A stretch of 64,000 nucleotides of DNA from Methyloversatilis discipulorum (GTDB lineage Bacteria > Pseudomonadota > Gammaproteobacteria > Burkholderiales > Rhodocyclaceae): NCBI RefSeq assembly GCF_000527135.1, contig NZ_AZUP01000001.1, positions 3,497,535 through 3,561,534 of the forward strand, written 5' to 3'. A program made the position numbers and the translations under genes. Below the pieces are notes generated by a model that saw only the letters and a list, made by a program, of their open reading frames with translations, was not told where the DNA came from and made no database searches. Shown one piece after another: positions 25,843 through 36,894 of the stretch (the first letter of the stretch is position 1; each line of letters begins with the position of its first letter).

Positions 25843-25927
25843 TGTCTCAACTATCTCACCGCCACCCCTCCCGATGTCGAGACAGCTGTCGCAGCTTTCC
25901 GGCGTCTCACCCGTACATCTGTCGCAG
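25843..25927. promoter_or_regulatory. Cluster of candidate activator binding sites upstream of the porin promoter
   Basis: The central site CGAGACAGCTGTCGCA at 25878-25893 matches the perfect palindrome in front of acoX (TGAGACAGCTGTCTCA) at 14 of 16 positions. Half-site matches lie on both sides: TGTCTCA at 25843-25849 and ATCTGTCGCA at 25918-25927. The centre is about 105 bp before the -24 element, a usual distance for a sigma-54 activator. Confidence 0.6.
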
Positions 25928-25989
25928 CCCTCCGCGATCTCCAGGGCATAACCCCAGTATCCATGCGGGTTTGCGGGCAATTGCTTCAG

Positions 25990-26004
25990 TGGCATGAATG
26001 CTGC
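25990..26004 (+). promoter_or_regulatory. Sigma-54 (-24/-12) promoter of the porin/alcohol dehydrogenase genes
   Basis: TGGCATG-AATG-CTGC matches the TGGCACG-N4-TTGC consensus, with GG and GC separated by exactly 10 bases. It lies 83 bp before the porin ATG. Confidence 0.7.
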
Positions 26005-26086
26005 CTTAAGCCCTCCGACGGTGACCCGAACATGCAGGCGCCGCATTCAACCAGGACCAATCAACAGCATCACCTAGGAGGGGAAC

Positions 26087-33768: not shown

Positions 33769-34739
33769 CCAGTCCTTTGAACAGGGAAGCCCTTCTGCAG
33801 GCTTACCGGACCATGCGCGTCATTCGCGATTTCGAAGAGCGCGTGCACGTTGATTTCGCCACCGGCGAAATCCCCGGTTTCGTCCATCTGTATGCAGGCG
33901 AGGAAGCTTCGGCGACCGGCATCTGCATGCACCTCAACCGCAAGGACTACATCGCCTCGACCCACCGCGGTCACGGCCACTGCATCGCCAAGGGTGTTGA
34001 TCCCGTCGGCATGATGGCCGAGATCTGGGGCAAGGCCACCGGCACCTGCAAGGGCAAGGGCGGCTCGATGCACATCGCCGACCTCGAGGTGGGCATGCTC
34101 GGCGCCAACGGCATCGTCGGTGGCGGTGGCCCGCTGATCTGCGGTACCGCGCTGGCGTCCAAGATTCGCGGCGAGAACAACGTCGGCGTGTGCTTCTTCG
34201 GTGACGGCGCGTCCAACCAGGGCACCATTTTCGAAGCGATGAACCTCGCTTCCGTGTGGAAGCTGCCGGTCATCTTCGTGGCGGAGAACAACGGCTACGC
34301 CGAAGCGACCTCCAGCAACTTCTCGGTGGCTGTCGAGAACATCGCTGACCGCGCGAGCGCCTTCGGCATGCCGGGCGTCATCGTCGATGGTTTCGATTTC
34401 TTCGCGGTTTACGAAGCGGCCGGCGAGGCGATCAAGCGCGCCCGCGAAGGCGGCGGTCCGACCCTGCTCGAAGTGAAGCTGTCGCGCTACTACGGCCACT
34501 TCGAAGGCGACCAGCAGACCTACCGCGCGCCGGGCGAAGTGCAGAAGCTGCGCGAAACCAAGGACTGCCTGATGCAGTTCGCCAAGCGCGTCACTTCGCG
34601 CGGCGAACTGACCATGGCTGACATCGAAGCCATCGACCGCGAAGTGAAGACGATGATCGACGACTCGGTGGTGAAGGCGAAGGCTGACCCGCTGCCGCCG
34701 CCCGAGGCCCTGATGGCCGACGTCTACATCTCGTACTGA
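33765..34739 (+). CDS. acoA: Acetoin dehydrogenase E1 alpha subunit
   Basis: AGAGGAG precedes ATG 33765; the protein has 324 residues. It is the TPP-binding E1 alpha subunit. It has YAGEEASATGICMHLNRKDY and STHRGHGHCIAKG at the active-site entrance, and the diphosphate/Mg motif GDGASNQGTIFEAMNLASVW (GDG...N) near residues 147-175. With AcoB it cleaves acetoin, transferring hydroxyethyl-TPP to lipoate. It follows acoX and precedes acoB in a sigma-54 operon. Confidence 0.95.
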   Translation: MTSPLNREALLQAYRTMRVIRDFEERVHVDFATGEIPGFVHLYAGEEASATGICMHLNRKDYIASTHRGHGHCIAKGVDPVGMMAEIWGKATGTCKGKGGSMHIADLEVGMLGANGIVGGGGPLICGTALASKIRGENNVGVCFFGDGASNQGTIFEAMNLASVWKLPVIFVAENNGYAEATSSNFSVAVENIADRASAFGMPGVIVDGFDFFAVYEAAGEAIKRAREGGGPTLLEVKLSRYYGHFEGDQQTYRAPGEVQKLRETKDCLMQFAKRVTSRGELTMADIEAIDREVKTMIDDSVVKAKADPLPPPEALMADVYISY

Positions 34740-34771
34740 ACCCGCGCCATACGCCGACAGGAGAAAACAGA

Positions 34772-35782
34772 ATGGCAAGAAAGATCACTTACCAGCAGGC
34801 CATCAACGAGGCGCTGGATCAGGAAATGTCGCGTGACCCGAGCGTCATCATCATGGGTGAGGACGTCGCCGGCGGCGAGGGTTCGCCCGGCGAGCAGGAC
34901 GCCTGGGGCGGCGTGCTCGGCGTGACCAAGGGCCTGTACGCGAAGCATCCGGGCCGCGTGCTCGATACGCCGATCTCGGAATCGGGTTATGTCGGCGCCG
35001 CCGTCGGTGCCGCCTGCAACGGCCTGCGCCCGGTCGCCGAACTGATGTTCATCGACTTCATGGGCGTCTGCTTCGACCAGATCTTCAACCAGGCCGCCAA
35101 GTTCAAGTACATGTTCGGCGGCAAGGCCAAGACTCCGGTCGTCATCCGCGCGATGTACGGCGCCGGCTTCCGTGCCGCCGCCCAGCACTCGCAGTGCCTG
35201 TACAACGTGTTCACGCACATCCCCGGCCTGAAGGTGGTCATCCCGTCGAACCCGTACGACGCCAAGGGCCTGCTGATCCAGTCGATCCGCGACAACGACC
35301 CGGTCATCTTCCTGGAGCACAAGGCGCTCTACACGATGGAAGGCGACGTGCCGGCCGAGAGCTACATCGTCCCCTTCGGCGAAGCCGCCGTGGTGCAGGA
35401 AGGCGACGACGTGACCATCGTCGCCATGGGTCGCATGGTCCATTACGCGAAGGAAGCCGCCGGCAACCTGCGCAAGAAGGGCATCCAGTGCGAAATCATC
35501 GATCCGCGTACGACCTCGCCGCTCGACACCGACACGATTCTGGAAAGCGTCGAGCGCACCGGCCGTCTGGTCGTCGTCGATGAATCCAACCCGCGCTGCA
35601 GCATGGCGTCGGACATTTCCAGCTTCGTTGCCCAGGAAGCTTTCGGCGCACTGAAGGCGCCGATCCAGATGGTGACTGCACCGCACGTTCCGGTGCCGTT
35701 CGCCGCTTCGCTTGAAGATCTTTACATCCCCAGTCCGGCACGCATTGAAGAAGCCGTGATGAAGGTCAAGGAGTATCGCTGA
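34772..35782 (+). CDS. acoB: Acetoin dehydrogenase E1 beta subunit
   Basis: ACAGGAG precedes ATG 34772. The 336-residue protein is the transketolase-like beta chain of E1, with MGEDVAGGEGSPGEQDAWGG, DTPISESGYVGAAVGAA and the C-terminal half beginning VTIVAMGRMVHYAKEAAGNL. It pairs with AcoA to form the alpha2beta2 enzyme. Its TGA overlaps the acoC ATG by one base, so translation is probably coupled. Confidence 0.95.
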   Translation: MARKITYQQAINEALDQEMSRDPSVIIMGEDVAGGEGSPGEQDAWGGVLGVTKGLYAKHPGRVLDTPISESGYVGAAVGAACNGLRPVAELMFIDFMGVCFDQIFNQAAKFKYMFGGKAKTPVVIRAMYGAGFRAAAQHSQCLYNVFTHIPGLKVVIPSNPYDAKGLLIQSIRDNDPVIFLEHKALYTMEGDVPAESYIVPFGEAAVVQEGDDVTIVAMGRMVHYAKEAAGNLRKKGIQCEIIDPRTTSPLDTDTILESVERTGRLVVVDESNPRCSMASDISSFVAQEAFGALKAPIQMVTAPHVPVPFAASLEDLYIPSPARIEEAVMKVKEYR

Positions 35783-36894
35783 TGTCCGCAATCCATACCG
35801 TCACCATGCCCAAGTGGGGCCTTTCCATGCAGGAGGGGAAGGTCAACCTGTGGCTGAAGGAAGTCGGTGACACGATCGACCCGGGTGAGGAAATCATCGA
35901 GGTCGAGAGCGAGAAGATTTCCGGTGCCGTCGAGGCGTCGGTGTCGGGCGTGCTGCGCCGTCAGGTTGCCCAGCCGGACGAAGTGCTGCCGGTCGGCGCG
36001 CTGCTCGGCATCGTCGCCGAGAAGGGCGCGTCCGATGACGACATCGACGCGGTGATTGCCCGCTTCCAGGCCGAGTTCGTGCCGCCGTCCGCCGACGACG
36101 CCGACTCCGGTCCGCAGACGCAGACGGTCAAGGTCGGCAACGTCGAAGTGCGTTACCTGAAGCTGGGTGAGGACGTTGCCGGCAAGGACCCGCTGCTGCT
36201 GGTCCACGGCTTCGGTGGCGATCTGAACAACTGGCTGTTCAACCACTCGCCGCTGTCCGAGTCGCGTGCCGTGTATGCGCTCGACCTGCCGGGTCACGGC
36301 AGCACCACCAAGGTGACCGGCATCGCCTCGCTCGACGGTCTGGCCGAAGTGGTGATCGGCTTCATGGACGCCGTCGGTCTCGAATGCGCCCACCTGGCCG
36401 GCCACTCGATGGGCGGTGGCGTCTGCCTGGCGGTCGCCAAGCGCGCGCCGACCAAGGTGAAGTCGCTGTCGCTGATCGCCAGTGCCGGTCTGGGCAACGA
36501 GATCAACGGTGCCTACATCGACGGCTTCGTCGCCGCCGCTTCGCGCAACGCGCTGAAGCCGGTGCTGGCGCAGCTGTACTCCGACGAGTCGCTGGTCACT
36601 CGCTCGATGATCGACGACATGCTCAAGTTCAAGCGCCTCGAAGGTGTCGACAGCGCGCTCGCCACGCTGGCCGGCGGCCTGTTTGCCGGCGGCCGTCAGG
36701 CCGAGCAGCTTGCTTCGGCCGCGGCCGGCAAGCCGACGCTGGTGATCTGGGGCGAAAACGACCGTGTCATCCCGTCCTCTCACGCTACGGCGATCCCGGG
36801 CGCGACCGTGAAGGTGATGCCGGGCCAGGGCCACATGGTCCAGCTCGAAGCGGCAGGCGAAGTGAACAAGCTGATCGGCGAGTTCATCGGCTGA
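35782..36894 (+). CDS. acoC: Acetoin dehydrogenase E2, lipoyl domain plus alpha/beta hydrolase
   Basis: The 370-residue protein has a lipoyl domain (residues 5-80) with the modified lysine in VESEKISG (Lys45). A linker rich in Asp and Pro follows, then an alpha/beta-hydrolase-type acyltransferase domain (115-370) with [11 protein letters not shown] and the nucleophile elbow GHSMGGG (Ser209). This layout is that of AcoC in Cupriavidus and Pseudomonas rather than a normal E2. It passes the acetyl group to CoA. No E3 (acoL) gene follows. Confidence 0.94.

Follow-up and report, generated by a model that had tools for sequence, protein, structure and literature searches.

Gene content of the cluster

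The 64,000-nucleotide stretch of the Methyloversatilis discipulorum genome analysed here (contig NZ_AZUP01000001.1, positions 3,497,535 to 3,561,534; hereafter the window) carries a gene cluster in which AcoR, a sigma-54 activator, is encoded between an operon for an outer-membrane porin and a pyrroloquinoline quinone (PQQ)-dependent dehydrogenase, or quinoprotein, and the acoXABC genes for an acetoin dehydrogenase. In Methyloversatilis and its relatives, the acetoin-cleaving complex and extracytoplasmic alcohol oxidases appear to be switched on together by a single regulator of the acetoin type.

Genes were assigned by matches to Pfam and NCBIfam models. The first gene set, on the forward strand, consists of the porin (Porin_4; 26087..27283), a PQQ-dependent dehydrogenase of 563 amino acids that is presumably periplasmic and possesses a D-x-D metal motif and no vicinal cysteine pair (27362..29053), and a c-type cytochrome (29322..29744). 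AcoR is encoded on the reverse strand (30135..32249) and possesses the AAA+ domain and Fis-type helix-turn-helix of an AcoR-type activator (PF00158, 1.9e-64; PF02954, 6.6e-10). These domain matches and a reading of the sequence confirmed the proposal of an initial annotation that a sigma-54 activator gene lies between two gene sets. The second set, again on the forward strand, comprises acoX (32582..33625), acoA for a thiamine-pyrophosphate-dependent E1 alpha subunit (33765..34739), acoB for E1 beta (34772..35782) and acoC for an acetoin-type E2 with a lipoyl domain and an alpha/beta hydrolase (35782..36894), so that E1, E2 and AcoX of an acetoin dehydrogenase system are represented. AcoC scored 476.8 bits against NF011457, the model of the acetoin-dehydrogenase family (cut-off 307). 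The E1 subunits matched generic pyruvate-dehydrogenase-type models only, beta above and alpha below the cut-off, and AcoX was assigned from its NAD-kinase-like fold and its position only.

An ATG at 32546 sits immediately past the -12 element of the acoX promoter described below, and acoX therefore probably starts downstream of it. The most likely start, to which the gene call was corrected, is the GTG at 32582; a query begun there aligned from its first residue in two related loci (L075 and L076).

A terminator-like hairpin with a T run was identified between the dehydrogenase and cytochrome genes (29120..29147, forward strand), where a 97-nucleotide stretch folds with a z-score of -2.29, with 7 of 200 shuffled sequences folding as well. 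A T-tailed hairpin follows the dehydrogenase gene in all nine of the related loci L075-L083 and in 22 of the 35 loci compared below, as counted without a shuffle control. Due to this hairpin, the cytochrome may be expressed by read-through or from a promoter of its own. The porin, dehydrogenase and cytochrome had initially been annotated as one set, but the cytochrome may not simply belong to the porin transcript. A stronger hairpin with a T run lies between acoC and lipA (36904..36931, forward strand; z-score -5.80, no shuffle of 200 as good), with a hairpin found at this position in 4 of 14 loci. Terminator-like matches over the whole region numbered 6, against 8.5 expected in shuffled sequences. 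The lipA gene itself (lipoyl synthase; 36950..37900, forward strand), identified by a model match, is a second copy. With thiG beyond it and thiC upstream, thiamine genes flank the cluster on both sides, and cofactors of AcoAB and AcoC are thus encoded around it.

Operator palindromes and sigma-54 promoters

Upstream of acoX a perfect 20-base palindrome, ACTGAGACAGCTGTCTCAGT, was found at 32381..32400, which is presumed to be the AcoR enhancer site of acoXABC. The putative AcoR-type site of the porin/PQQ-dehydrogenase operon, CGAGACAGCTGTCGCA, is situated at 25878..25893 and is identical to the core of the acoX site in 14 of 16 bases. Each is accompanied by a second, weaker element, that of acoX lying 22 bp upstream of the main site (32361..32376; 10/14, and conserved in L075-L083) and that of the porin region 33 bp downstream (25911..25926; 9/14, counted by eye). 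In relatives the paired elements of the porin-operon site lie 32-33 bp apart and are often better preserved than in the window. Sigma-54 (-24/-12) promoters on the forward strand were identified at 25990..26004 for the porin operon (TGGCATGAATGCTGC) and at 32530..32544 for acoX (TGGCACGACAGATGC), both with the GG/GC spacing typical of such promoters and beginning 112 and 147 bases, respectively, past the start of the 16-base core. The initial annotation had claimed both palindromes, and an exactly spaced promoter before each gene set, and all four elements were borne out on reading the sequence.

The resemblance between the two palindromes is far above chance. With up to three mismatches allowed, CTGAGACAGCTGTCTCAG matched just two places in the 64 kb, namely the two sites, while shuffling leads to an expectation of 0.02. 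Across the whole genome (G000; 4.31 Mb in a single contig), TGAGACANNTGTCTCA was found in three places at up to one mismatch, with none for a reversed control. For the promoters, TGGCACGACAGATGC is the sole exact match to TGGCACGNNNNNTGCW within the window, but at up to two mismatches 59 -24/-12 motifs were found against 64 expected. Matches to a relaxed promoter consensus are thus no commoner than in shuffled sequences, and a sigma-54-like match without the palindrome also precedes most of the other PQQ-dehydrogenase genes compared below. The consensus by itself was accordingly not accepted as evidence, and the weight of the argument rests on the pairing with the palindrome and on conservation.

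Two other occurrences in G000 were set aside. An exact copy of GAGACAGCTGTC at 3945811 spans a gene start at a coding-gene junction and was taken as chance; the genes that surround it in this methylotroph (3936000-3955999, L008) resemble those of bacteriochlorophyll and carotenoid biosynthesis (bch-type, named by eye). The copy CGAGACAACTGTCTCA at 2649190-2649205 (L131) is flanked by a DUF4394 gene and by a divergently oriented gene, after which comes a gene for a GGDEF-EAL protein. A like site occupies the same position in two close relatives, and neither it nor the G000 copy has a strong sigma-54 promoter; this site was not counted as a target.

Conservation of the paired sites among related loci

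Scanning the named genomes with the 563-residue dehydrogenase yielded 38 loci, of which the 35 with at least 75% identity were used (L111 and L112, at 30-31%, and L108, at 56%, fell below this threshold). The locus in the M. discipulorum record showed 94-100% protein identity gene by gene. A site was taken as paired with a promoter where a palindrome of at least 11/14 and a promoter of at least 8/10 lay 50-220 bases apart, with dinucleotide shuffles as the control; the following counts are not independent, since the loci and genomes share ancestry and some come from the same strains. In these Rhodocyclales loci, porin-headed quinoprotein promoters carried both elements in 29 of 30 cases (shuffles, 3 of 3000). 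Some of the porins (in L084, L086, L087, L092, L101, L102) stand at the head of a further quinoprotein gene at a greater distance. For aco-type promoters, one of which (L105, the first) belongs to another E1 type, the figure was 19 of 20 (shuffles, 0 of 2000). The aco promoter of L107 fell below the threshold (10/14) and still has weak matches. It was the one aco promoter to do so, and no relative that keeps the gene order was found to be without the site, an outcome that would have spoken against the initial annotation. The same operator and -24/-12 promoter stand before every proposed member operon.

Quinoprotein genes with no directly preceding porin carried the pair in four of nine cases (one, L107, with a faulty region; the short L087 and L092 were skipped). 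On closer reading, sites and promoters were present in the apparent misses L091, L097, L098 and L103, which have no porin, and in L109: the sites lie before a preceding gene further upstream or are of a variant type, TGCGACANNTGTCGCA, with a TGCGACA half-site. Around this type of palindrome, sigma-54 matches face both ways in L098, L103 and L109.

Both acoR and acoA were found downstream of the dehydrogenase gene on the same stretch in 17 of the 35 loci, following a second quinoprotein operon in some of them (e.g. L084, L086), and in these 17, as in the window, AcoR is divergently adjacent to the aco operon. Six loci showed acoR alone, the sequence ending soon after it in most. In another six (L089, L098, L099, L103, L109, L110), which belong to Denitromonas-, Cognatazoarcus- and Thauera-type genomes with TGCGACANNTGTCGCA-type palindromes, the dehydrogenase genes diverge from an operon for another E1 alpha/beta pair. 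The thiC gene lies upstream in 21 of the 35.

Co-occurrence of AcoR, its sites and the target genes

Thirteen Methyloversatilis genomes, including G000, were searched for the elements of the cluster. AcoR (at least 79% identity), AcoC (at least 76%), the 563-residue dehydrogenase (at least 87%), the second lipA (at least 88%) and an exact TGAGACANNTGTCTCA were found together in twelve of these, with none of the five in the thirteenth (G001). AcoR paralogues (52% at best) and the remaining lipA (62%) are still encoded in that genome; accordingly, lipA is present in two copies in the twelve and in one copy in the genome without acoC. In a sample of 61 genomes, the site at up to one mismatch was present in all 13 genus members versus 3 of 48 others, the copy in G001 being mismatched and beside no gene of the module. 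AcoX was identified in only 4 of 369 genomes across the class (G000 and three marginal cases), which is too sparse for an operator test further out.

The sites, the promoters, their conservation and this co-occurrence are matters of observation, and the pattern of presence suggests that the protein requiring the site is AcoR and not one of its paralogues. Shared sites across genera and the co-occurrence in 12 of 13 genomes strongly support the regulatory half of the initial proposal of one AcoR regulon. Its extent did not stand, since a third operon would also belong.

A third operon with the AcoR-type site

One of the three genome-wide matches to TGAGACANNTGTCTCA, at 2274624, lies upstream of a second putatively AcoR-linked PQQ-dehydrogenase gene, referred to here as PQQ2 (G000 2272615-2274408, reverse strand; operon at approximately 2.272-2.274 Mb), with a perfect TGGCACGAATGCTGC promoter. 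Orthologues of PQQ2 (at least 88% identity) were found in 11 of the 13 genus genomes, and all 11 possess the site pair and promoter, with the elements 25 bases apart (the better scoring 12-13/14 and the weaker 10-11/14) and a promoter of at least 9/10. PQQ2 meets the cut-off of the methanol/ethanol-dehydrogenase family TIGR03075 with a score of 551 and keeps both the cysteine pair (CC) and D-x-D. Downstream of it lie genes for a family-3 solute-binding protein, weakly MoxJ-like (45 bits, cut-off 212), and then cytochromes. G000 contains about twelve PQQ-dehydrogenase-like genes in all (18 matching stretches, one weak), several with D-x-D.

None of the upstream regions of 19 other PQQ-dehydrogenases of the genus, two of which are 76% paralogues, reached 11/14 for the palindrome, with approximately 300 bases of true upstream sequence covered for most, as the scan began about 60 residues into the protein. 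A sigma-54-like match of at least 9/10, with no palindrome, was identified in 17 of these 19.

AcoR and its paralogues

The recognition helix RATFYRK was found in every AcoR orthologue compared; the residue before it is Pro in L105 and Ser in the rest. G000 encodes four AcoR paralogues that align over most of the length, at 50, 41, 40 and 34% identity, and in two cases the paralogue gene adjoins another PQQ-dehydrogenase gene (2191782-2196313 and 1278244-1286317; L129, L132). Together with the 17 sigma-54-like upstream regions, this suggests a broader role for activators of the AcoR family in the control of quinoproteins in these bacteria.

These same observations, which imply that other activators serve such genes, would also accommodate parallel circuits with a similar site in place of one regulon, in which the quinoprotein palindromes are bound by a paralogue, either the 50% one at 2191782, whose helix (PRATFYRR versus SRATFYRK in AcoR) is similar, or one of the others. 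We consider this very unlikely: G001 keeps a 52% paralogue yet has neither AcoR nor the exact site nor any of the targets, and no site of at least 11/14 was found within 14 kb around the quinoprotein gene (2194649) that lies beside the 50% paralogue.

The 563-residue quinoprotein

Unlike PQQ2, the window enzyme falls below the cut-off of TIGR03075 (448.2, cut-off 480.05), and it is most aptly described as a diverged relation of the family. Its residues were counted in a close clade, the best 120 of 7691 homologues, with roles that we take to be those of known structures. The metal-binding Glu is replaced by Asp in a GDQP motif in all 120, Lys occupies the position of the active-site Arg in 119, and Phe-Tyr stands in place of the vicinal cysteines (F in 117, Y in 119). 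The second aspartate of the D-x-D (WDYD), a motif reported as a lanthanide signature (PMC11996626, PMC5487730), is present in 118 of the 120. Both putatively AcoR-linked quinoproteins thus carry the lanthanide motif and may be lanthanide-dependent. Homologues listed for the clade carry general dehydrogenase names only.

An active site so different from those of the characterised enzymes aligned with it could mean that another secondary alcohol or vicinal diol is oxidised, to an acyloin other than acetoin, and that AcoR senses that acyloin family. The Denitromonas-type genomes, in which the dehydrogenase is paired with another E1 alpha/beta and a TGCGACA-type palindrome, would fit such a substrate, as would the E1 subunits of the window, which matched no acetoin-specific model. 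It is nonetheless rather improbable in our estimation, given that AcoC exceeds the cut-off of an acetoin-specific family and AcoX is present, and that the AcoR of Cupriavidus is reported to respond to acetoin (PMC7057948).

Proposed regulon and metabolism

The inference of a regulon is strongly supported by the comparison of these sequences, and the regulon would be wider than first proposed. AcoR probably controls at least three operons, two of them for quinoproteins that would oxidise an alcohol, 2,3-butanediol in the first place, to acetoin for AcoABC. As a sigma-54 enhancer-binding activator, it would act on acoXABC, the adjacent porin/PQQ-dehydrogenase operon and the distant PQQ2 operon by recognising TGAGACANNTGTCTCA-like palindromes, usually as two unequal copies 22-33 bp apart, with a distance to the downstream -24/-12 promoter that is in most cases about 70-170 bp. 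We infer this binding, as well as acetoin as the inducer (as with the Cupriavidus AcoR) and the metabolism that follows. The porin would admit an alcohol that yields acetoin, with 2,3-butanediol as the first candidate, and the quinoprotein would oxidise it in the periplasm, with a c-type cytochrome as electron acceptor. The acetoin formed would then enter the cell and activate AcoR, and AcoABC would cleave it to acetaldehyde and acetyl-CoA, the quinoproteins taking the place of the cytosolic BdhA of the Pseudomonas putida AcoR operon.

The metabolic half of this proposal is plausible, with the conversion of 2,3-butanediol to acetoin as the likeliest reaction. The AcoR iModulon of P. putida is reported as acoXABC-bdhA, in which bdhA encodes a 2,3-butanediol dehydrogenase (PMC10943186), and the P. 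putida quinoproteins PedE and PedH are described as converting (2S,3S)-2,3-butanediol to acetoin, which feeds acetoin dehydrogenase (PMC8427195, PMC5487730). GHE is the zinc-enzyme motif of medium-chain dehydrogenases/reductases (MDR); none of the eight MDR-family dehydrogenases found in G000 has it, so that no zinc-type butanediol dehydrogenase was found, the short-chain type not having been searched for. A replacement of BdhA by quinoproteins is therefore the simplest reading. The acetoin genes of M. universalis are reported as silent on methanol and methylamine (PMC5023235), which is consistent with induction by a specific substrate.

A number of points weigh against this proposal. Among the NCBIfam and Pfam models, no acetoin-specific E1 model matched in the window, AcoB passes the cut-off of a generic pyruvate-dehydrogenase E1 beta, and the E1 pair of the six divergent loci is not established as acetoin-specific. 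Neither acoR nor an E1 partner was found in 6 of the 35 loci, four with 1.4-7 kb of downstream sequence and two (L093, L102) with the full 10 kb, and the porin site of the window (14/16) is weaker than its Zoogloea counterparts. The activity of PedE and PedH on 2,3-butanediol is reported as 0.39 and 0.78 U/mg, respectively, versus 6.7 and 11.0 on ethanol, with good activity on acetaldehyde (PMC5487730). Activity on the diol can therefore not be assumed for the quinoproteins considered here, and a role after cleavage is conceivable.

In such a role, within the same regulon, the quinoproteins would oxidise the acetaldehyde released by AcoABC, or ethanol formed from it, to acetate in the periplasm, which would serve detoxification and energy. 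It would agree with the report that acetaldehyde is a far better substrate than 2,3-butanediol for the quinoprotein ethanol dehydrogenases characterised so far (PMC5487730), with the presence of the site at two quinoprotein operons, where one would suffice for a diol step, and with PQQ2 passing the methanol/ethanol-dehydrogenase cut-off ahead of its solute-binding protein and cytochromes. We regard it as unlikely since it leaves the dedicated porin unexplained, the neighbours of the operon are acyloin-cleaving genes and their regulator, and the AcoR operon of P. putida is reported to carry BdhA, an upstream enzyme (PMC10943186).

Returning to oxidation of the alcohol ahead of AcoABC, a more far-reaching version, which is conceivable but doubtful, would have dedicated lanthanide-dependent periplasmic quinoproteins carry out 2,3-butanediol catabolism in the Rhodocyclales as part of an acetoin-responsive sigma-54 regulon. 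The 563-residue clade would then be an uncharacterised family of secondary-alcohol dehydrogenases whose partner is aco in some lineages and another E1 operon in others, while a common, co-evolving palindrome is retained.

Comparison with known systems

The AcoR/acoXABC system of Cupriavidus necator H16 is sigma-54-dependent. It resembles that of the window in its acetoin-responsive activator and the promoter belonging to it, and differs in that no link to a quinoprotein operon is described in the available passages of the source (PMC7057948). PedE and PedH of P. putida are likewise quinoproteins, PedH having the lanthanide aspartate (PMC5487730), but the window enzyme, unlike these, has no vicinal cysteines. 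PedE and PedH are reported to be regulated inversely by lanthanides via the PedS2/PedR2 two-component system, with control by AcoR not reported in the portions of that account that were available (PMC6115532). The neighbours of PQQ2, a family-3 solute-binding protein and c-type cytochromes, are of the same kind as those of the Mdh2/Mdh2J/Mdh2G cluster of M. universalis FAM5. Mdh2 is reported to be highly expressed on methanol, with the acetoin genes silent (PMC5023235); if PQQ2 is Mdh2, AcoR would not be its sole control.

Among the matches listed by full-text searches of the open-licence literature, none was found to describe a regulon that joins AcoR to quinoproteins. The regulon proposed here predicts a function, a regulator and an inducer for a quinoprotein clade that carries general names only, and connects enzymes of the lanthanide type with a carbon regulon under sigma-54. 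It also suggests how, in a regulon for acyloin cleavage, periplasmic quinoproteins can take over a first step that is otherwise cytosolic, and its operator is defined well enough to find the same regulon in other genera, such as Zoogloea.

The closest known counterpart is the AcoR regulon of P. putida KT2440, which shares AcoR, acoX, acoA, acoB and acoC and the cleavage of acetoin to acetaldehyde and acetyl-CoA. There the 2,3-butanediol step is reported to be performed by BdhA from the same operon, within a five-gene iModulon that, as described in the parts of the source available, includes no quinoprotein (PMC10943186). The Methyloversatilis genome G000, in which no zinc-type enzyme was found among eight MDR genes, has two quinoprotein operons with the AcoR-type site instead. 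Methyloversatilis thus appears to possess the known AcoR regulon in an altered form, in which quinoproteins stand in for the cytosolic BdhA.

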